Assembly (NCBI RefSeq): GCF_003050785.1 | Contig: NZ_QAOH01000006.1 | Location: forward strand, 124,001 to 188,000 | Reading direction: 5' to 3' | Length of the DNA: 64,000 nucleotides | DNA from: Celeribacter persicus | GTDB lineage: Bacteria; Pseudomonadota; Alphaproteobacteria; Rhodobacterales; Rhodobacteraceae | Shown: one piece after another, positions 36,782 to 45,950 of the stretch | Position numbering within the stretch: the first letter of the stretch is position 1 | Layout: the number at the start of each line of letters is the position of its first letter | The notes under the pieces: generated by a model | What the model was told of the DNA's origin: nothing | The model's database searches: none | Seen by the model: the letters and a program-made list of their open reading frames with translations, nothing else | Translations under genes and position numbers: made by a program

Positions 36782-37573
36782 ATGTTGACCAATGACTCAA
36801 ATCCCGCGACGCCCGTCATCGAGATCCATGACCTGCACAAGGCCTATGGCGATCTTGAGGTTCTGAAAGGCGTGTCCATGACCGCACCGCGCGGCCATGT
36901 GACCTCGCTCATTGGGTCTTCCGGCTCCGGTAAATCCACGCTGTTGCGCTGCGCCAACCTTCTGGAAGACAGCCAGCGGGGCGAGATTCTGTTCGAGGGC
37001 GAGCCGATCACCTGGAAGGGTGAAGGGCTGCACCGGCGTCCGTCTGACCCGAAACAAGTGATGCGCATTCGCACCAACCTGTCGATGGTGTTTCAGCAGT
37101 TCAATCTCTGGGCGCATATGACGGTGCTCGAAAACGTCATGGAAGCGCCGATTACGGTGCTGGGACGTGCCCGTGCCGAAGTCGAAGAGAAAGCCCGAAT
37201 GTATCTCGACAAGGTGGGGATCGGCGACAAATGCGATGTCTACCCGGCACAGATGTCGGGCGGCCAGCAACAAAGGGCGGCGATTGCCCGTGCGCTCTGC
37301 ATGGAACCGCGCGCGCTTTTGTTCGATGAGCCGACCTCCGCGCTCGACCCGGAACTTGAACAAGAGGTGATCAAGGTGATCAAGGCACTCGCCGAAGAGG
37401 GCCGAACGATGATCATCGTGACCCATGACATGCGCATGGCCTCCGACATTTCGGACCATGTCATTTTCCTGCACCAGGGGCTGATCGAGGAGGAGGGGAC
37501 GCCCTCCGACCTGTTCGGCACCCCGAAATCCGAACGCCTGAAACAGTTCCTGAGCGCGACTGTTCCGGCCTAA
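36782..37573 (+). CDS. Amino-acid ABC transporter ATPase (HisP/GlnQ-like)
   Basis: A 263-residue ABC ATPase with Walker A GSSGSGKST (45-53), the Q-loop FQQFNLWAH, signature MSGGQQQR, Walker B ALLFDEPTSALDP and the H-loop VTHDMRMA. The sequence is of the polar amino-acid uptake class, with the His-Arg-Arg insertion before the Q-loop common in HisP-like proteins. It opens an apparent transport-catabolism operon with binding protein, two permeases and GS-like ligases. The ATG at 36782 lacks an obvious ribosome-binding site, and TTG at 36776 is also in frame. Confidence 0.94.
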   Translation: MLTNDSNPATPVIEIHDLHKAYGDLEVLKGVSMTAPRGHVTSLIGSSGSGKSTLLRCANLLEDSQRGEILFEGEPITWKGEGLHRRPSDPKQVMRIRTNLSMVFQQFNLWAHMTVLENVMEAPITVLGRARAEVEEKARMYLDKVGIGDKCDVYPAQMSGGQQQRAAIARALCMEPRALLFDEPTSALDPELEQEVIKVIKALAEEGRTMIIVTHDMRMASDISDHVIFLHQGLIEEEGTPSDLFGTPKSERLKQFLSATVPA

Positions 37574-37606
37574 CCACATAGAGCGCTGACTTTTGGGGAG
37601 TACCAC

Positions 37607-38323
37607 ATGAAGAAGATCCTTCTTTCCGCCGCCGCCCTGGCCCTTCTGGCCGGTGCCGCCTCGGCCGACACCGTGCGTCTCGGCACGGAGGGCGCCTACC
37701 CTCCGTACAACTACATCGACGACAACGGCGAAGTGGCCGGTTTCGAGCGGGTGCTGGGCGACGAGCTTTGCAAACGCGCCGAACTGACCTGCGAATGGGT
37801 GACGAACGACTGGGACAGCATCATCCCGAACCTGCTCTCCGGCAACTACGATGCGATCATCGCCGGTATGTCGATCACCGACGAGCGCATGGAGAAGGTG
37901 GACTTCTCGCAGAACTACACCCCGCCGTCAGCCTCCGCTTATGCCGCCCTTTCCGAGGAAGCCGATCTCGAAGGTGGCGTGGTTGCCGCACAGGCCGGCA
38001 CCATTCAGGCCGCCCATGTGGTCGAAACCGGTGCGACCCTGCTTGAGTTCCCGAATTTCGAGGACAGCGTGGCTGCCGTGACCTCCGGTGAGGCCGACGC
38101 GGTCATGGCCGACAAGGACACGCTGGTGCCGGTCGTTGGCGAAGGCACGCTTATGTTCGTCGGCGACGACGTGCCGCTCGGTGGCGGCATCGGCATGGCC
38201 TTCCGCAAATCCGATCCGGAACTGCGTGGCAAATTCGATGCGGCGATCCAGTCGATGAAAGACGACGGATCGCTCAACGCGCTGATCAAGGAATGGCTCG
38301 AAGACAGCCCGATCTTCGAGTAA
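37607..38323 (+). CDS. Amino-acid ABC transporter solute-binding protein (HisJ/ArgT-like)
   Basis: A 238-residue periplasmic binding protein with signal peptide MKKILLSAAALALLAGAASA, then RLGTEGAYPPYNYIDDNGEV and the family-3 signature YDAIIAGMSITDER. The pattern and acidic pocket residues are like lysine/arginine/ornithine and histidine binders, so a basic amino acid or a related amine is the likely ligand; that is an inference. GGGGAG precedes the start. It is separated from the permease genes by a UUCG hairpin that would favour higher expression of the binding protein. Confidence 0.88.
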   Translation: MKKILLSAAALALLAGAASADTVRLGTEGAYPPYNYIDDNGEVAGFERVLGDELCKRAELTCEWVTNDWDSIIPNLLSGNYDAIIAGMSITDERMEKVDFSQNYTPPSASAYAALSEEADLEGGVVAAQAGTIQAAHVVETGATLLEFPNFEDSVAAVTSGEADAVMADKDTLVPVVGEGTLMFVGDDVPLGGGIGMAFRKSDPELRGKFDAAIQSMKDDGSLNALIKEWLEDSPIFE

Positions 38324-38343
38324 TCCGCATTCCACTGCATCCC

Positions 38344-38365
38344 GGTGGGGCGTTCGCGCCCCGCC
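38344..38365 (+). other. UUCG stem-loop between binding protein and permease genes
   Basis: GGTGGGGCG (38344-38352) and CGCCCCGCC (38357-38365) form a 9-bp stem (one G-U pair) closed by a TTCG tetraloop. There is no T-run, so it is probably an mRNA-stabilising or partial attenuation element that keeps the binding protein more abundant than the permeases. Confidence 0.6.
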
Positions 38366-38462
38366 TCTACCGAACAGGTGTCCCATCTTTTCCTATTGCG
38401 CCGATCCTGACACGCTCGACCGCCTGCATTGGCTGAGCTGTTATCTGACGACCGGAAAGCAT

Positions 38463-39275
38463 ATGGCTTTCTACACCTCCTTCGGGACGGTGCTCTTGCT
38501 TCTGGCCGTAACGGCACCGCTGGCGCTTGCCTTCGGTTTTGCCGCCGCCAGCGGATCGCGGTCGCATTTCTTCCCGCTGAAATGGCTGTCGAACATCTAC
38601 ATGGCCATCGTGCGCGGCGTACCGGACATCGCGTTCTTCCTGTTTTTCGTCATTGCGCTCGATCAGGGCTTTGAATGGATGCGCCATCAGGTGCTCTGCC
38701 CGAATTGGGATCAGCCGATCCGTCAGGGCAATGACTTCATCGTCTGTCAGGCGGCCAAGCTGCCACATAACTCCGCACCTGAGATCGTGCACCAGATTTA
38801 CGGTTTCGCATTGGCGGTGCTGACCTTTGCCATCGTCTTCGGGGCCTTTGCGGGCAATGTGCTCGCCGGGGCCTTCAAGGCCGTGCCACACGGCCAGATC
38901 GAAACCGCCGAAGCCTATGGCATGACCAGGCGCCAGACCTTCTGGCGCATCATGGTGCCGCAGATGTGGACCTATGCCATTCCCGGCCTGTCGAACCTCT
39001 GGATGGTGCTGATCAAGGCCACGCCCTTGCTCTTTCTTCTGGGGGTCGAAGATGTGGTCTACTGGGCACGCGAGCTCGGCAACACCAAGACCGCGCGCTT
39101 CACCGATTATCCGCATGGGGACTGGCGTATCTATTATTTCTTCGGGCTTCTGGTCTTTTACCTCGCCTTCACGAAGCTTTCCGAAATCGTGCTGAACCGG
39201 ATCACCCGCAAGCTTTCCCAAGGGCAGGCCACCGCCGCCGGCGAAGCGATGCGCAAAGCGGGGGCACAAGGATGA
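38463..39275 (+). CDS. Amino-acid ABC transporter permease (HisQ-like), start uncertain
   Basis: A permease of the polar amino-acid class, 270 residues from the first ATG. The EAA docking loop is HGQIETAEAYGMTRRQTFWR, and the long periplasmic loop 60-110 carries Cys-rich and polar residues. The same frame is open and looks coding upstream of 38463 (it reads ...WLSCYLTTGKHMAFY), a stretch I recall as the conserved N-terminus of this roseobacter family. The only codons available there are a non-standard ATC at 38385, which follows an AGGTG site, or CTGs. It overlaps the next permease by four bases (ATGA). Confidence 0.85.
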   Translation: MAFYTSFGTVLLLLAVTAPLALAFGFAAASGSRSHFFPLKWLSNIYMAIVRGVPDIAFFLFFVIALDQGFEWMRHQVLCPNWDQPIRQGNDFIVCQAAKLPHNSAPEIVHQIYGFALAVLTFAIVFGAFAGNVLAGAFKAVPHGQIETAEAYGMTRRQTFWRIMVPQMWTYAIPGLSNLWMVLIKATPLLFLLGVEDVVYWARELGNTKTARFTDYPHGDWRIYYFFGLLVFYLAFTKLSEIVLNRITRKLSQGQATAAGEAMRKAGAQG

Positions 39276-40078
39276 CCTGTTCGGAGACCCTCGCAAACTA
39301 CGCCTTTCGCTCTCTGGGTTTTGGCGAACGCCGCCTGCCGGTTAGCGACATCACGATCTGCGATCAGGTGACTCTGATCGGGTCGGGTATGCTCTGGAAC
39401 ATCTATTTCGGGCTTCTGGCCATCGCGCTCGGTTTCTTTACCTCACAGGCGCTGGCCGTGGCGAAAACCTCGTCCAACCGCGCGATCCGCAAACCGGCCG
39501 AGTGGTTCATCTTCGTCTTCCGCGGCTCGCCGCTGTTCATCCAGTTCTTCTTCGCTTATTTCCTCTTCCTGACGATCAAGCAATCCGTGCCGATACTGAG
39601 CGATCTCACCAACGCCTGGCTGGGTGCGGCGATCGTGCTGTGGTTCAACACCACGGCCTATTCCGCCGAAATCTTTTACGGCGCGCTCATGGCGATCCCG
39701 AAAGGCGATCTGGAGGCTGCCGACGCCTATGGCTTCACGGGTTTCAAACGCTTTCGCCGGATCGTCTGGCCGACCATGCTGCGGCTGGCGTGGCCCGCCT
39801 ATACGAACGAGGCGATCTTTATCTTTCACTCCACCACTCTGGTGTTCCTCTCCGGTTTCCCGGCCTTGCAGCAAAAGGGCGACGCGCTTTATTACGCCTC
39901 CTATTTTGCCGACAAGACCTTCAACCCGTTCATCCCCTACCCGATCCTCGCGGGCTATTTCGTTCTGGTGACGCTCTGCATCATCACCGTCTTCGGCCTG
40001 ATCGGAAAGCGGTTGAACCGTCACCTTCCGCAACCCCGTCAGAGACGGCCCCGGATGATGGCGCAAATCTTTCGTTAA
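39272..40078 (+). CDS. Amino-acid ABC transporter permease (HisM-like)
   Basis: The second permease of the cluster, 268 residues, with the EAA loop PKGDLEAADAYGFTGFKRF and five hydrophobic helices. It and the preceding permease form a heterodimer, as with HisQM. Translation is coupled: the ATG lies within the stop region of the upstream gene (ATGA overlap). A run of basic residues (RQRRPRMMAQIFR) ends the protein. The first ligase gene starts 9 bp further on. Confidence 0.9.
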   Translation: MTCSETLANYAFRSLGFGERRLPVSDITICDQVTLIGSGMLWNIYFGLLAIALGFFTSQALAVAKTSSNRAIRKPAEWFIFVFRGSPLFIQFFFAYFLFLTIKQSVPILSDLTNAWLGAAIVLWFNTTAYSAEIFYGALMAIPKGDLEAADAYGFTGFKRFRRIVWPTMLRLAWPAYTNEAIFIFHSTTLVFLSGFPALQQKGDALYYASYFADKTFNPFIPYPILAGYFVLVTLCIITVFGLIGKRLNRHLPQPRQRRPRMMAQIFR

Positions 40079-40087
40079 TGGTGTCTC

Positions 40088-41431
40088 ATGACTTCCCCCC
40101 ACAGCTGGCTTGCCCAGAACCCCGACGTCAAAACCATCCGCATCGCAGCCGCTGACCTGAACGGTCAGGCACGCGGCAAGCGCATGTCCGCGCGCTATGC
40201 CGACAAGGTGGAGACCGAGGGCACACGTTTTCCCCTGTCTGTCCTAAACCTCGACATCTGGGGCGAAGACATCGAGAACAGCCCGCTCGTTTTCGACAGC
40301 GGCGACAAGGACGGGGTGCTTTTGCCCACCGAGCGCGGATTTATTCCGATGCCCTGGCTCGAAGGGCCGACGGCGCTTTTGCAAATGTGGATGTTCCACG
40401 AGGACGGGCGGCCTTTCGACGGCGACCCGCGTCAGGTTCTGGCGCGTGTGCTGGAGCGCTACAAGGCCAAGGGGCTGACCCCCGTGGTGGCGACCGAACT
40501 GGAATTCTACCTCGTCGATGACAGTTCGCGGCAGCTCCGCGTGCCGCGTTCGCCGCGTTCCGGCAAACGCCGTCCGGGGGCAGAGACACTGGCCCTGCGT
40601 GCGCTCGACTCCTTCGACCGCTTCTTTACCGATCTCTACGAAGCCTGCGAGGCGATGGATATCCCGGCGGATACCGCGATTTCCGAGGCGGGTCTTGGGC
40701 AGTTCGAAATCAATCTGGTCTACTCGCCCGATGCCCTGAAAGCCGCCGATGACGCGTGGCTTTTCAAGCTCATGGTCAAGGGACTGGCGCGCAAACACGG
40801 GTTCGCAGCCTCTTTCATGGCGAAACCCTATGACGAATATGCCGGCAACGGCATGCATACGCATTTCTCGATGCTCAACGAGGATGGCGACAACATCTTT
40901 GACGATGGCTCTAGTGCGGGCACCGACATGATGCGCCATGCGATTGCCGGATGCCTCGCCGCGATCCCGGATTCGACCATCCTTTTTGCGCCGCATGGCA
41001 ATTCCTACGACCGTCTGGTGCCGGGGGCACATGCGCCGACGCGGATCTGTTGGGGCTATGACAACCGCACGGCTGCGGTGCGCGTCCCCGGCGGTTCGCA
41101 CAAGGCGCGGCGGATCGAACACCGTGTGTCCGGGGGCGATGTGAACCCGCACCTGATGATCGCGGCCATACTCGGCGCAGCGCTCATCGGCATGGAGGAC
41201 AAGATGAAAGCCCCGCCCCCGATCACCGGCAATGCCTATGCGCAGGCGCTGCCGGAAATGCCGGGCGACTGGGGCACGGCGATTGCCACTTTCGAGACCT
41301 CGGAGATGATGCGGCGCATCTTCCCTGCCGAACTGATCCAGAACCTGACGCTCACCAAGCGGCAGGAGCTTCGCGACTGGATGGAACTGACGCCCGAAGA
41401 GCAAGTGGAGCTTTATCTGGACACGGTTTGA
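40088..41431 (+). CDS. Glutamine-synthetase-family ligase (PuuA-like)
   Basis: A 447-residue GS-type ATP ligase. The catalytic features are visible: Glu137/Glu139 in ATELEFYL, Glu200 and Glu207 in SEAGLGQFEIN, His257/His259 in GNGMHTHF, the NSYDRL...CWGYDNRT segment, and RIEHR. This fold also includes gamma-glutamyl-putrescine, -methylamide and -polyamine synthetases. It lacks the adenylylation Tyr motif of true GlnA, and the segment ITGNAY resembles PuuA, so it more likely makes a gamma-glutamyl conjugate. It is one of two different GS-like enzymes in the operon. Confidence 0.85.
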   Translation: MTSPHSWLAQNPDVKTIRIAAADLNGQARGKRMSARYADKVETEGTRFPLSVLNLDIWGEDIENSPLVFDSGDKDGVLLPTERGFIPMPWLEGPTALLQMWMFHEDGRPFDGDPRQVLARVLERYKAKGLTPVVATELEFYLVDDSSRQLRVPRSPRSGKRRPGAETLALRALDSFDRFFTDLYEACEAMDIPADTAISEAGLGQFEINLVYSPDALKAADDAWLFKLMVKGLARKHGFAASFMAKPYDEYAGNGMHTHFSMLNEDGDNIFDDGSSAGTDMMRHAIAGCLAAIPDSTILFAPHGNSYDRLVPGAHAPTRICWGYDNRTAAVRVPGGSHKARRIEHRVSGGDVNPHLMIAAILGAALIGMEDKMKAPPPITGNAYAQALPEMPGDWGTAIATFETSEMMRRIFPAELIQNLTLTKRQELRDWMELTPEEQVELYLDTV

Positions 41432-41538
41432 GCGTGTTTGGATATTTTTGATCAAATTTCTGCGCTTTGCCGCCTGCCCTCTTGTCGGGCTAGCGGCGAA
41501 GCGCTAGCGTCGGATCATTCCAAAGCACTTGGTGACTT

Positions 41539-42231
41539 ATGAAACTCGGCATTCTGCAATGCGGACACGCGCCCGACCCCGTCGCGCAAATACACGGGGA
41601 TTTTCCACTGATGTTCAAACGGCTCTTCGACCGTCCGGAGTTCTCCTATGAAGCCTGGGATGTAGAGCATATGGATTTCCCGAAAGGCCCGGAGGATGCC
41701 GACGCGTGGCTCCTGACCGGCTCGAAACACGGCGCCTATGAGAATCACCCGTTCATCGAACCGCTCGAAGGACTGATCCGTGATGTCCATGCCTCCGGGC
41801 GTCGGATGCTGGGCATCTGTTTCGGACATCAGATCATCGCCACCGCTCTGGGCGGCACAGTCGAGAAATTCAAGGGCGGCTGGGCCGTCGGGCGTCATGC
41901 CTATGACATCGCACCTCTGGGGCCGATCCATCTCAACGCCTGGCATCAGGATCAGATCGTGGAGTTGCCCGAAGGGGCCGAAGTCTTGGGTGGCAACGAT
42001 TTCTGCGAGAACGCGGCGCTGGTCTACGGCGACAGCATCCTGACCATTCAGCCGCATCCCGAACTCAGCAATCCGATCATCGCCGATTACATTTCCTCGC
42101 GCATGGGCAACCCCGCCTATCCGATGGAACTGATGATGCGGGCGCAGGAAGAGAATAGCAAACCCACCGACGACAAGCGTTTTGCCGATCTCATGGTGGA
42201 TTTTTTGCAACGCGGCCGGGAGGCGCTTTGA
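41539..42231 (+). CDS. Class I glutamine amidotransferase / gamma-glutamyl hydrolase-type protein
   Basis: A 230-residue class I glutamine amidotransferase with the Cys-His-Glu triad: C94 in LGICFGHQII and H173/E175 in QPHPE. As a stand-alone GATase between two GS-like ligases, it resembles PuuD, which hydrolyses gamma-glutamyl-GABA, but it is not PuuD-like along its full length. Alternatively it is a GuaA-type amidase for another gamma-glutamyl amide. The upstream 107-bp gap from the first ligase gene has no clear terminator. The next ATG is 3 bp after its stop. Confidence 0.8.
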   Translation: MKLGILQCGHAPDPVAQIHGDFPLMFKRLFDRPEFSYEAWDVEHMDFPKGPEDADAWLLTGSKHGAYENHPFIEPLEGLIRDVHASGRRMLGICFGHQIIATALGGTVEKFKGGWAVGRHAYDIAPLGPIHLNAWHQDQIVELPEGAEVLGGNDFCENAALVYGDSILTIQPHPELSNPIIADYISSRMGNPAYPMELMMRAQEENSKPTDDKRFADLMVDFLQRGREAL

Positions 42232-42233
42232 CC

Positions 42234-43586
42234 ATGGAATTTCTCGACAAACTGCCGCAGGCCGCACTCGACTTCATGGAAGGGCGCAAGCTCGACGAGG
42301 TGGAATGCATCGTCGCGGACCTTTCCGGCATTGCGCGAGGCAAGGCCATGCCCGCCGCAAAATTCGAAAAGCAAAAGCATTTCTACCTGCCGAATTCGAT
42401 CTTCTTGCAGTCGATCAACGGCGATTGGGTGGACGATGCGGACGCGCCCTTCACCGAACCGGACATGGTGCTTGTGCCGGATTTCGAAACCGCGACCGCC
42501 GCGCCCTGGACCGCGGACTGCACGCTTCAGGTGATCCACGATGTGCTGGACCAGAAGGGCGAAATGGTCCCGGTCGCGCCGCGCAACGTGCTTAAACGCG
42601 TGGTGCAACTCTATCACGCACAGGGATGGGACCCGATTGTCGCCCCCGAGATGGAATTCTTTCTCGTGGCGCGCAACACCGATCCGAACCAACCGGTCGA
42701 ACCGCCGATTGGCCGCACCGGGCGGCGCGCGGCGCAGCGGCAGGCCTATTCGATGTCCGCCGTGGACGAATACGGGCCGATCATTGACGACATTTACGAC
42801 TTTGCCGAAGCGCAGGGCCTGGAGATCGACGGCATCCTGCAAGAGGGCGGTGCCGGTCAGATCGAGATGAACCTGCGGCACGGCGATCCAGTGAAGCTCG
42901 CCGATGAGATGTTCTATTTCAAACGGCTGATCCGGGAGGCGGCGCTGCGCCACGATTGTTTCGCGACCTTCATGGCGAAACCCATTCAGGACGAGCCGGG
43001 TTCGGCGATGCACATTCACCATTCGGTTGTGGACATCAACACGGGCGAGAACATCTTTTCCAATCCGGACGGCTCGGAATCCGAAGCCTTCCTGCATTTC
43101 ATCGCTGGGCTGCAAAACCACCTCGCCTCCACGATTGCGATCCATGCGCCCTATGTGAACAGCTACCGCCGTTACGTTCGTGACTTTGCCGCGCCCATCA
43201 ACCTCGAATGGGGCCGCGACAACCGCACCACGGGTCTGCGCGTGCCAATCTCCGGGCCGGAAGCGCGGCGGATCGAAAACCGTCTGCCGGGGATGGATGT
43301 AAACCCCTACCTGTCGATTGCTGCCTCGCTGGCCTGTGGCTATCTGGGTCTCATCGAACGGCGCGAGCCGCGGGCGGAATATGTCGGCGACGCCTACGAT
43401 TCCGCCGATGGCATCCCGGAAACGCTCGGTTCCGCGCTCGACCTTCTCGAAGGCGCCACGCAGATGCAGGATGTACTGGGCAAGGATTTCGTGCGTGTCT
43501 ACACCACGGTGAAACGCGCCGAGAACGAGGCCTATCTTCAGGTCATCTCCCCTTGGGAGCGCGAGCACCTGCTGCTCAACGTGTGA
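42234..43586 (+). CDS. Glutamine-synthetase-family ligase, second copy
   Basis: A 450-residue GS-type ligase clearly distinct from the one at 40.1 kb. It carries the metal/ATP residues Glu139/Glu141 (PEMEFFL), Glu204/Glu211 (EGGAGQIEMN), His260/His262 (GSAMHIHHSV), and the conserved WGRDNRTTGLRVP and RIENRLPG. It has the N-terminal signature ADLSGIARGKAMP of PuuA/GlnA-like gamma-glutamylation enzymes. Two such ligases flanking a GATase is a known arrangement in alphaproteobacteria for amine or amino-acid use, with unresolved substrates. A strong terminator follows. Confidence 0.85.
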   Translation: MEFLDKLPQAALDFMEGRKLDEVECIVADLSGIARGKAMPAAKFEKQKHFYLPNSIFLQSINGDWVDDADAPFTEPDMVLVPDFETATAAPWTADCTLQVIHDVLDQKGEMVPVAPRNVLKRVVQLYHAQGWDPIVAPEMEFFLVARNTDPNQPVEPPIGRTGRRAAQRQAYSMSAVDEYGPIIDDIYDFAEAQGLEIDGILQEGGAGQIEMNLRHGDPVKLADEMFYFKRLIREAALRHDCFATFMAKPIQDEPGSAMHIHHSVVDINTGENIFSNPDGSESEAFLHFIAGLQNHLASTIAIHAPYVNSYRRYVRDFAAPINLEWGRDNRTTGLRVPISGPEARRIENRLPGMDVNPYLSIAASLACGYLGLIERREPRAEYVGDAYDSADGIPETLGSALDLLEGATQMQDVLGKDFVRVYTTVKRAENEAYLQVISPWEREHLLLNV

Positions 43587-43608
43587 ACCAGAACACAGAA
43601 CCGTATTC

Positions 43609-43632
43609 AAGGGGGCCGGGTGCCCCCTTTTT
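43609..43632 (+). terminator. Rho-independent terminator after GS-like operon
   Basis: AAGGGGGC (43609-43616) and GCCCCCTT (43622-43629) form a perfect 8-bp stem with a 5-nt loop and a TTTTT tail. It ends the apparent operon beginning with the ABC ATPase. Confidence 0.88.
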
Positions 43633-43750
43633 CGCACGCGTTTTTGTGACGTTTTTGCGAAATTTCGCCGGTCTCCCGGCGTGGGAGTAGATTTTTAAGC
43701 GCGCAATACTTACAGTTATTCTGAAAGAAGAATTCCAAAAAGGTGAAATC

Positions 43751-44953
43751 ATGAGTCTCGGGCCCAATGTCTATGACGCCGAACCGATCCCCGAAGAAGC
43801 GCGCGCAATTGTCGAGCAGCTTCTGAGCTCGGGCGATCTGTTCCGCTATACCGCGCCGGGCAATGCGCCCGTGACGCTTTTGGAGCGTGAGTTCGCCGAG
43901 ATGCTGGGCGCGAAATACGCGCTGGCCGTGGCCTCCTGCTCCGCCGCCCTGTTCCTGTCGCTCAAGGCGCTGAACCTGCCGCGCGACGCCAAGGTGCTGA
44001 TCCCGGCCTTCACCTTTGCCGCCGTGCCCTCCTCCATCGTGCATGCCGATTGCAAACCGGTGCTCGTGGAGTGCAACGACAACTACCGGATCGACCTCAA
44101 CGATTTCCACGCCAAGATTGAAGATGCCGATGCGGTGATGATTTCCCACATGCGCGGCCATACCTCCGACATGGATGCGATCAAGGCGGCCTGCGATGCC
44201 AAGGGTATTCCGCTCATCGAAGACGCGGCGCATTCGCTCGGCACCGTCTGGGACGGCCAGAACATCGGCACCATCGGCAAGATCGGCTGTTTCTCCTTCC
44301 AGTCCTACAAGCTTTTGAACGCAGGCGAAGGCGGTATCATGATCACCGACGATCCGGAGATCATGGCCCGCGCCGTGATCATGTCCGGCGCTTACGAACA
44401 CAACTGGGCCAAGCACAATCCGCAGCGCGACAATGCCCTCTCCGCCGAATTTGCCAGGTGGCAGAACCAGCTACCGCTCTACAACACGCGGTTGTCGAAC
44501 ATGTCCGCCGTGCTGGTGCGTCCACAGTTGAAAGAGGTGCCGCGCCGGGTCGCCGACGGGCGTCGCAACCACGATTACACCGCCGCACGCCTTGAGACCT
44601 CGCCGCATCTGACCGTTCCCGCCAAGCTCGACAAGGAAGTGCGCGCGCCCGACAGCCTGCAATTCAACCTCGTGGATTTCTCGCGAGAAGAGGCTCTGGC
44701 CTTCCAATCCGCAGCGAAAGTACGCGGTGTCTCGGTGCAGGTCTTCGGCCTCTCAACCGACAACGCGCGGGCCTTCTGGAACTGGCAATTCCTCGGCGAG
44801 ACGCCGGAGCTGCCGAAAACCCGTGAGATGCTGTCGAAAGCCTGCGACACCCGCCTCCCGGCGCGTCTGACCGAAGAGGACTGCGACTTCATCGCGGACG
44901 CGCTTCTGGGCGCAGCCGAAGAGGTCAAGGGCGTGCGGGTCGCGGCTGAATAA
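43751..44953 (+). CDS. DegT/DnrJ/EryC1/StrS-family PLP aminotransferase
   Basis: A 400-residue fold-type I PLP enzyme of the DegT family with the Schiff-base lysine K187 in FSFQSYKLLNAGEGG and the PLP-contacting ASCSAALFLSLKAL. Such enzymes usually make amino sugars or act on keto-sugars and related ketones. No sugar-nucleotide genes surround it, so its substrate here is more likely an amine or keto acid; that is an inference. The run ISHMRGHTSDMD is unusual for the family. It lies just after the GS-like operon terminator, and a second terminator follows it. Confidence 0.85.
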   Translation: MSLGPNVYDAEPIPEEARAIVEQLLSSGDLFRYTAPGNAPVTLLEREFAEMLGAKYALAVASCSAALFLSLKALNLPRDAKVLIPAFTFAAVPSSIVHADCKPVLVECNDNYRIDLNDFHAKIEDADAVMISHMRGHTSDMDAIKAACDAKGIPLIEDAAHSLGTVWDGQNIGTIGKIGCFSFQSYKLLNAGEGGIMITDDPEIMARAVIMSGAYEHNWAKHNPQRDNALSAEFARWQNQLPLYNTRLSNMSAVLVRPQLKEVPRRVADGRRNHDYTAARLETSPHLTVPAKLDKEVRAPDSLQFNLVDFSREEALAFQSAAKVRGVSVQVFGLSTDNARAFWNWQFLGETPELPKTREMLSKACDTRLPARLTEEDCDFIADALLGAAEEVKGVRVAAE

Positions 44954-45005: not shown

Positions 45006-45950
45006 TTACAGACGTTTGAGATAACCACCGAGCCACGGGTAGGTGGCGACCATCGGGTTGACAACCTGCGCCTGCAATAGCGGACCGAGCTGATCGGCCA
45101 CTTCCCGCGCCATTTCCGACATGCCGTCGCGGCGCACCGTCAGGGAAATATGTCGCGAGAGCGGCGCAACCGGCAGAGGAATGGCCTCGATCCCATCGGC
45201 ATAGCGACCGGCGTTGAGCACACCCAGCGAGGACAGGATGGTCCAGCCCGTCCCGCCCGCCACCATGGCGATCATCGCCCGGTAACTGTCAAGCTCGAAC
45301 CGATGCGTCAGTGTCATGCCCTGCACCGCCAGATGTTCGGCCAGCGTGCGTCCCATGACATGACGGCGGGTGTATTGAATGAGCGGCAGCTCCTTCACCG
45401 CGTCATGCCGGCCCTTCGGCACCACGGCCACGAAAGGGTCCTGCAACAGCGGATGGCTTTCCGACCATTCCGCCCCGTCGCCCAGTTCCGCCGCCACGAT
45501 CACATCGAGCGCACGGTTTTCCAGCCGGTCGAGCAGACGATGCGACGGGCCGGTTTCAAGCTCGAACCGGGTTTCGGTCAGCCGGTCCGCCATCCGGGTG
45601 ATCAGCAGGGGTGTCACGGAGGCTTCGAAATCCTCCACCATGCCGAGGCGCAATTGTGCAAGGTGGCTGAGGTCGAGCCCGGCGATCTCGGAGCGGGCGC
45701 GGGCGGCCTCCAGCAGGATGCTCTGCGCCCGGCGCCGCAGCACCCTCCCCGCAGGCGTCAGGCTCATCGGCCGCTCCCGCCGATTGATCAGCTCCGTTCC
45801 CAGCGCGGTCTCCAAATTGGAAATCTGTTGCGATACGGCAGAGGGCGACGCGCCAAGACGCTTGGCCGCGGCAGAGACCGAACCTTCCTCGGAGACGGCC
45901 AGGAACACCTCCACCCCCCAAAGCGTCAGACGCCCGACCTTGTCGCTCAT
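45006..45950 (-). CDS. LysR-family transcriptional regulator
   Basis: A 314-residue LysR regulator with the N-terminal winged HTH (LAVSEEGSVSAAAKRLGASPSAVSQQISNLE, about 16-46) and a C-terminal inducer domain (about 90-300). It is convergent with the DegT gene, and whether it controls that gene or the GS/ABC operon cannot be decided from position. No LysR-type T-N11-A operator was identified with confidence in the nearby upstream sequence. Its 3' end is shared with the DegT terminator region. Confidence 0.9.
   Translation of the reverse strand: MSDKVGRLTLWGVEVFLAVSEEGSVSAAAKRLGASPSAVSQQISNLETALGTELINRRERPMSLTPAGRVLRRRAQSILLEAARARSEIAGLDLSHLAQLRLGMVEDFEASVTPLLITRMADRLTETRFELETGPSHRLLDRLENRALDVIVAAELGDGAEWSESHPLLQDPFVAVVPKGRHDAVKELPLIQYTRRHVMGRTLAEHLAVQGMTLTHRFELDSYRAMIAMVAGGTGWTILSSLGVLNAGRYADGIEAIPLPVAPLSRHISLTVRRDGMSEMAREVADQLGPLLQAQVVNPMVATYPWLGGYLKRL

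Follow-up and report, generated by a model that had tools for sequence, protein, structure and literature searches.

Among described systems, the closest to the locus reported here are the Puu pathway of Escherichia coli (PuuABCDE), with a glutamine synthetase (GS)-like ligase, a DAO-type oxidase, an aldehyde dehydrogenase, a hydrolase and a class III transaminase, and the gamma-glutamylpolyamine synthetases of Pseudomonas aeruginosa, which according to the accessible part of PMC9397018 has seven pauA genes. We analysed a 64,000-nt stretch of the Celeribacter persicus genome (contig NZ_QAOH01000006.1, positions 124,001 to 188,000; hereafter the window). At positions 36782–44953 of the window eight genes, all on the same strand, encode an ABC importer, a GS-like ligase (GS1), a class I glutamine amidotransferase (GATase), a second GS-like ligase (GS2) and a pyridoxal phosphate (PLP) aminotransferase of the DegT family, in this order. 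We put at slightly better than even the reading that the locus serves the breakdown of gamma-glutamylated diamines, supplied by a basic amino acid that the importer takes up, with DegT as a second, separable module.

The gene set, order and position given in a preliminary description of the window were borne out, with family matches for all eight genes. The ‘one apparent operon’ of that description probably extends from the importer to GS2 and stops short of DegT: the intergenic gaps in gene order are 33, 139, −4, 9, 107, −4 and 164 nt, and the last and largest, between GS2 and DegT, holds a terminator-like hairpin. The operon was not found described in the literature searched (subscription papers were outside its coverage); an annotated example labels such genes only ‘glutamine synthetase’ and ‘amino acid ABC transporter’.

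Two GS-like ligases and a candidate hydrolase

GS1 (40088–41431, plus strand) and GS2 (42228–43586, plus strand, with a start at TTG 42228 or ATG 42234) match PF00120 (Gln-synt_C) with 325 and 338 bits, respectively, and are 32% identical to each other. An alignment that included GlnA and PuuA of E. coli shows E129, E131, E212, E220, H269, R321, R339, R344, E357 and R359 (GlnA numbering), presumably the glutamate, ATP and metal residues, to be kept in both ligases. The two residues that we take to form the ammonium site of GlnA are replaced: D50 by P in both ligases, and E327 by H in GS1 and by A in GS2; the corresponding residues of PuuA are P and Y. Because D50 and E327 are replaced as in PuuA and the glutamate, ATP and metal residues are kept, GS1 and GS2 have the look of GS-like enzymes of the amine type rather than plain glutamine synthetases. 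This agrees with the preliminary assignment of both as gamma-glutamyl ligase-type enzymes, and the logic of the Puu pathway applies. In a quick tree, where several long branches meet, GS1 grouped with E. coli PuuA (support 98) and GS2 fell into another branch.

Plain glutamine synthetases would likewise belong to the GS family and carry the conserved glutamate, ATP and metal residues, and among the NCBIfam models GlnA fits both ligases best. However, its scores (211 and 250 bits) are under the cut-off of 429, D50 and E327 are replaced in both, and a separate GS gene at C4 of the same genome scores higher (449 bits to PF00120); we rejected this reading and give it almost no credence. The GS type III model likewise did not reach its cut-off of 470 (200 bits for GS1 and 216 for GS2).

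The free-standing GATase (41539–42231, plus strand) matches PF00117 only (40 bits) and leaves PF07722, the PuuD family, unmatched; a PuuD-like Peptidase_C26 (PF07722) protein is encoded at C6:90307-91041, unlinked to the operon. With the PRK05665 model the GATase scored 131.7 bits (cut-off 309), and its best PDB sequence match was gamma-glutamyl peptidase 1 (3e-17). The GxCFGHQ and HPE motifs are present in the GATase open reading frames (ORFs) of 77 out of 79 relatives. To judge from its sequence, the enzyme is likely a gamma-glutamyl hydrolase in the PuuD role. Since a member of the same family lies among PuuB, PuuC-like and gamma-aminobutyrate (GABA) transaminase genes in another locus, L057 (genome G032), PF00117 fills the place of PuuD there, in a cluster of polyamine type.

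Distribution of the operon and position of PuuB

The operon itself encodes neither PuuB nor PuuC, and the preliminary description had taken two ligases without these enzymes as a sign of an undescribed order of steps. Relatives speak against that claim. We scanned genome contigs with a GS2 alignment and kept the best 80 loci (68–76% identical; more exist). Most of their titles name Rhodobacteraceae, taken broadly; a few go no further than Alphaproteobacteria or Proteobacteria. The usual order was ABC-SBP-PermA-PermB-GS1-GAT-GS2-PuuB-(DegT)-(LysR), with PuuB directly 3′ of GS2 in 64 of the 80 loci. All 52 loci of at least 19 kb had the GATase, 46 had PuuB, 40 each importer gene, 40 GS1 and 27 DegT. 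The binding protein, GS1, GATase and GS2 co-occurred in 38 of these long loci; nine had GAT-GS2-PuuB without binding protein, GS1 or DegT. Conserved genes often found beside the operon in relatives were tentatively read as polyhydroxyalkanoate genes. In Leisingera the operon, DegT included, is present at L111, L140 and L147, pFER4 of Paracoccus ferrooxidans has the importer followed by GS1 alone, and one genome (G018) is without an orthologous GS1. The conservation and recurrence of the gene set are real and not random, and the set is found in many Rhodobacteraceae, a family in which the uptake of amines and amino acids is important to nitrogen use in the sea.

A search for PuuB and PuuC elsewhere in the window's genome, as the preliminary description had proposed, found a single full-length PuuB homologue (C2:33341-34606; 39% identity with E. 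coli PuuB across 422 aa); a second match covers 210 residues only. PuuB and PuuC are thus absent from the locus, but the genome has this PuuB homologue, on another contig, between a class III transaminase and an aldehyde dehydrogenase. The transaminase passes the PRK07480 subfamily cut-off (769 vs 510 bits); the dehydrogenase is 35.6% identical to PuuC and scores 312 bits with the PuuC model (cut-off 850). The same trio was present in all three genus genomes that we read. A PuuB of this type (at least 72%) was found in exactly those 14 of 20 genus genomes that have GS2 orthologues, and the 14 form one clade (97/91).

The resident PuuB groups with off-operon PuuBs (support 99 in a quick tree, SH-aLRT only), including the PotF-adjacent ones of loci L057, L159 and L160. 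In L057, paralogues of GS1 and GS2 are accompanied by two PuuBs, the PF00117 GATase, a PotF-like protein (433 bits, cut-off 636), a PuuC-like dehydrogenase (600 bits, cut-off 850), and a GABA transaminase and an agmatinase that both pass their cut-offs. Two further genomes (G026 and G029) have operons without PuuB, and there a relative of the resident PuuB adjoins PotF and the same transaminase.

Imported substrate, proposed pathway and DegT

The importer belongs to the PAAT family of amino-acid ABC importers, an assignment at family level, with no equivalog cut-off reached. It comprises, all on the plus strand, a HisP-type ATPase (36782–37573, from ATG 36782; the mechanical ORF begins at TTG 36776; PF00005; HisP model NF007908 335 bits, below the cut-off of 466), a periplasmic family 3 binding protein (37607–38323; PF00497, SBP_bac_3) and two HisMQ-type permeases matching PF00528 (BPD_transp_1), permease A (38463–39275) and permease B (39272–40078, a start taken from reading the sequence), which overlap by 4 nt. 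Ahead of its first ATG, permease A keeps homology as far as 38385, where its codon is ATC and that of a relative is ATG; either the start codon is an unusual one or the start has shifted; the in-frame stretch IFSYC... 5′ of its ATG resembles the MFEYC... start of the orthologue in genome G017.

The binding protein matched 3i6v with 338 bits in a sequence comparison with the PDB and at 70% identity in a Foldseek search; the entry is described as the crystallised ‘periplasmic His/Glu/Gln/Arg/opine family-binding protein’ of Silicibacter pomeroyi, in complex with a ligand. The 50 Foldseek matches listed were amino-acid or opine binders and their relatives. R94 and D169 fall on the Arg and Asp positions of LAO-type proteins, both kept, which we take to bind the alpha-carboxylate and the alpha-amine, respectively. 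The protein looks like a binder of alpha-amino acids, not of amines, at the level of family and residues. As for the source of 3i6v, the PDB description conflicts with the review PMC8786288, the accessible part of which gives A. variabilis.

An alternative is the ordinary putrescine/polyamine Puu pathway, with polyamines carried directly by the importer and the ligases beginning putrescine breakdown. It agrees with the paralogous ligases, PuuBs and GATase that sit with a PotF-like importer and a GABA transaminase in L057, with the close PuuB relatives adjoining PotF in G026 and G029, and with the PRK07480 assignment of the resident transaminase. The binding protein tells against it: it is of family 3, it keeps the Arg and Asp typical of proteins that bind amino acids, and the 50 Foldseek matches listed for it are amino-acid or opine binders and their relatives. 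A Pot polyamine importer was rejected, as the operon encodes SBP_bac_3 and not PotF or PotD, and no PotF orthologue was found in the window's genome (best match 28% over 121 aa). Ruegeria pomeroyi imports cadaverine, putrescine and spermidine via potFGHI (PMC10130141, accessible part). We regard the polyamine reading as rather doubtful.

For diamine catabolism fed by a basic amino acid, the scheme would run as follows. We infer that an alpha-amino acid enters through the importer, most probably a basic one such as lysine, and that decarboxylation would turn it into a diamine (for lysine, cadaverine). GS1 and GS2 would join glutamate to an amine of the diamine, using ATP; the PuuB-type flavin oxidase encoded on the other contig would turn the free amine end into an aldehyde, and the adjacent aldehyde dehydrogenase would make the acid. 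The PF00117 GATase would then cut off glutamate, leaving an omega-amino acid for the class III transaminase. DegT, tied to the importer and separable from the rest, possibly transaminates the imported amino acid itself.

The diamine part is supported by the PuuA-like ligase residues, the L057 paralogues, PuuB beside GS2 in 64 of 80 loci, the GATase in all 52 long GS2 loci and its PDB proximity to gamma-glutamyl peptidase 1, the resident transaminase-PuuB-aldehyde dehydrogenase cluster, and two PF02784 decarboxylases in the genome, of which that at C6:202528 has a low LysA score (105 bits against a cut-off of 298). Import of a basic amino acid is supported by the LAO-type residues, the 70% identity to 3i6v and the lack of a PotF orthologue. 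Lysine as the starting compound would agree with the cadaverine/5-aminopentanoate route of Phaeobacter inhibens, which in the accessible part of PMC5653290 degrades lysine by this route and by L-pipecolate in parallel. If the scheme is true, it connects amino-acid import with gamma-glutamylation, supplies genes for a lysine route known from metabolomics, and shows a PF00117 enzyme in place of PuuD.

Several points weigh against this reading. Lysine is no more than the presumed ligand of the 3i6v complex. GlnA is the best model for both ligases, and the gamma-glutamylputrescine synthetase (GGputSyn) model gives only 184 and 184.5 bits for GS1 and GS2 (cut-off 650). Importer and ligases are separable across the genus: five genomes have the importer and DegT without orthologous GS1 or GS2; in the stretches of four of them (G002, G008, G009 and G017) the importer is followed by DegT with GS1 and GS2 absent between, G017 retaining the GATase there without ligases, and three of the five (G008, G009 and G010) hold distant GS1 or GS2 paralogues (46–58%) elsewhere. 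In G028 the importer, the ligase set and DegT lie at three separate places. The operon contains no decarboxylase. The tree does not support the resident PuuB as a relocated operon orthologue, since it is not with the operon PuuBs. The co-occurrence of PuuB and GS2 in the genus counts as one event because the carriers represent one clade change; with that change and one independent pair, it is weakened as statistical support. Finally, R. pomeroyi is reported with saccharopine or lysine dehydrogenase routes (PMC4334477, accessible part).

DegT (43751–44953, plus strand; PF01041, DegT_DnrJ_EryC1, 213 bits) is certainly a member of the DegT/DnrJ/EryC1/StrS family. K187, presumably the PLP lysine, is invariant in 28 of 28 aligned sequences, an SFQSYK..NAGEGG-type motif is found in the DegT ORFs of 36 of 42 relatives, and the predicted model (pLDDT 88.6) matches aminotransferase folds. 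Fic25 and sugar transaminases both stand among the top Foldseek matches, with little between their scores; therefore, no substrate can be assigned. The gap before the gene contains GGGGGC-CGGGT-GCCCCC-TTTTT at 43611–43632 (plus strand), likely a terminator by its appearance. A simple pattern search found a hairpin of the same kind, with varying stem letters, in nine of 14 GS2-bearing genus genomes, this one included; it is absent from the output of a general terminator scan, which gave 5 terminator-like sites vs 8.9 in shuffles. Convergent with DegT is a LysR gene (45006–45950, minus strand; HTH_1/LysR_substrate), a possible regulator, with relatives (at least 48%) in eight of the 52 long loci.

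The position of DegT bears on a further reading, in which two independent modules share the importer: importer, DegT and LysR would transaminate one amino acid, and GATase-GS2-PuuB with GS1 would be a neighbouring amine pathway. We surveyed 61 genomes (cut-offs: binding protein E ≤ 1e-60, DegT at least 68%, GS2 at least 69%) and found the binding protein in 31, DegT in 26 and GS2 in 24; every genome with DegT or GS2 had the binding protein, five had DegT without GS2 and three the reverse. This pattern, the nine long loci reduced to GAT-GS2-PuuB and the likely terminator all favour two modules; the four-gene association in 38 of 52 long loci and the company of the displaced DegT in G028 do not. 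We consider this a serious possibility, if short of an even chance.

In G028, the DegT orthologue (L048:4513-10253) lies by a GntR gene, a divergent PF00117 GATase, a P450, another GS-like ligase and a 2Fe-2S ferredoxin, possibly an oxidative gamma-glutamyl amine cluster. Isopropylamine and aniline pathways are a model for glutamylation followed by a different oxidase, and the ligases could in the same way glutamylate a monoamine or an amino acid. This single neighbourhood fits such a route; against it, the gene next to GS2 usually (in 64 of 80 loci) encodes the DAO-type oxidase PuuB, and we think the route unlikely.

Equally improbable is a locus with two lysine arms behind one lysine importer, in which GS1, GS2, PuuB and the PF00117 hydrolase would run a gamma-glutamyl-cadaverine route to 5-aminopentanoate and DegT would be a lysine:pyruvate 6-aminotransferase. 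Such an activity was proposed for P. inhibens, its gene unnamed in the accessible part of PMC5653290. The same text reports the aldehyde expected from direct lysine transamination as undetected and supports the pipecolate route to 2-aminoadipate, which counts against the DegT half and lowered our small confidence in the whole reading a little further.

Other DegT relatives were noted. In Roseovarius sp. W115 a 60% relative adjoins a LysE-family translocator, with no ligases in the 25 kb shown. A second DegT-family paralogue of the window's genome (39%; G000:C6:65890-67077) has one in-frame TGA. Three plasmid records (L006, L008 and L009) have 38–39% relatives by genes annotated as D-cysteine desulfhydrase, histidinol-dehydrogenase and amino acid racemase, company that we take to be that of organosulfonate breakdown; an organosulfonate link was dropped, these relatives being too distant for transfer of function.

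Comparison with known systems

The candidate gamma-glutamylmethylamide synthetase of this genome, at C1:355991, is a GS-like ligase as in the N-methylglutamate pathway; unlike GS1 and GS2, it passes the type III model (667 vs 470 bits). Its surroundings (L040, G000:C1:346500-366000), with a glutamate-synthase-like gene beside the GS type III gene and, by eye only, sarcosine-oxidase-like and folD/purU-like genes nearby, look like an N-methylglutamate pathway.

The spu genes of P. aeruginosa reportedly include a polyamine importer. With PauA1-7 and spuABCDEFGH-spuI, that species likewise has several gamma-glutamylpolyamine synthetases of differing substrates (PMC9397018, accessible part), a likeness by description and not by sequence. 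Paired ligases are consequently not the new logic they had first been taken for, as pairs also occur in the L057 polyamine-type cluster. That cluster shares paralogous GS1, GS2 and PuuBs and the same GATase family (parts recur in L159 and L160); it differs by a PotF-type importer, an agmatinase, a PuuC-like dehydrogenase, a GABA transaminase on site and GntR, and has no DegT.

With E. coli Puu the system shares all five enzyme types, the oxidase being in the operon in relatives and elsewhere here. Where E. coli has PuuP, the operon has an ABC importer of the amino-acid type; further differences are the two ligases, dispersed genes, a PF00117 enzyme for the PF07722 PuuD, DegT and a LysR neighbour. 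The operon is a form of a family-wide PuuB-containing operon, with PuuB off-site in this lineage, and is paralogous to the polyamine-type cluster; its unusual features are the amino-acid-type importer, a PF00117 enzyme where PuuD would be expected, and DegT behind a likely terminator.

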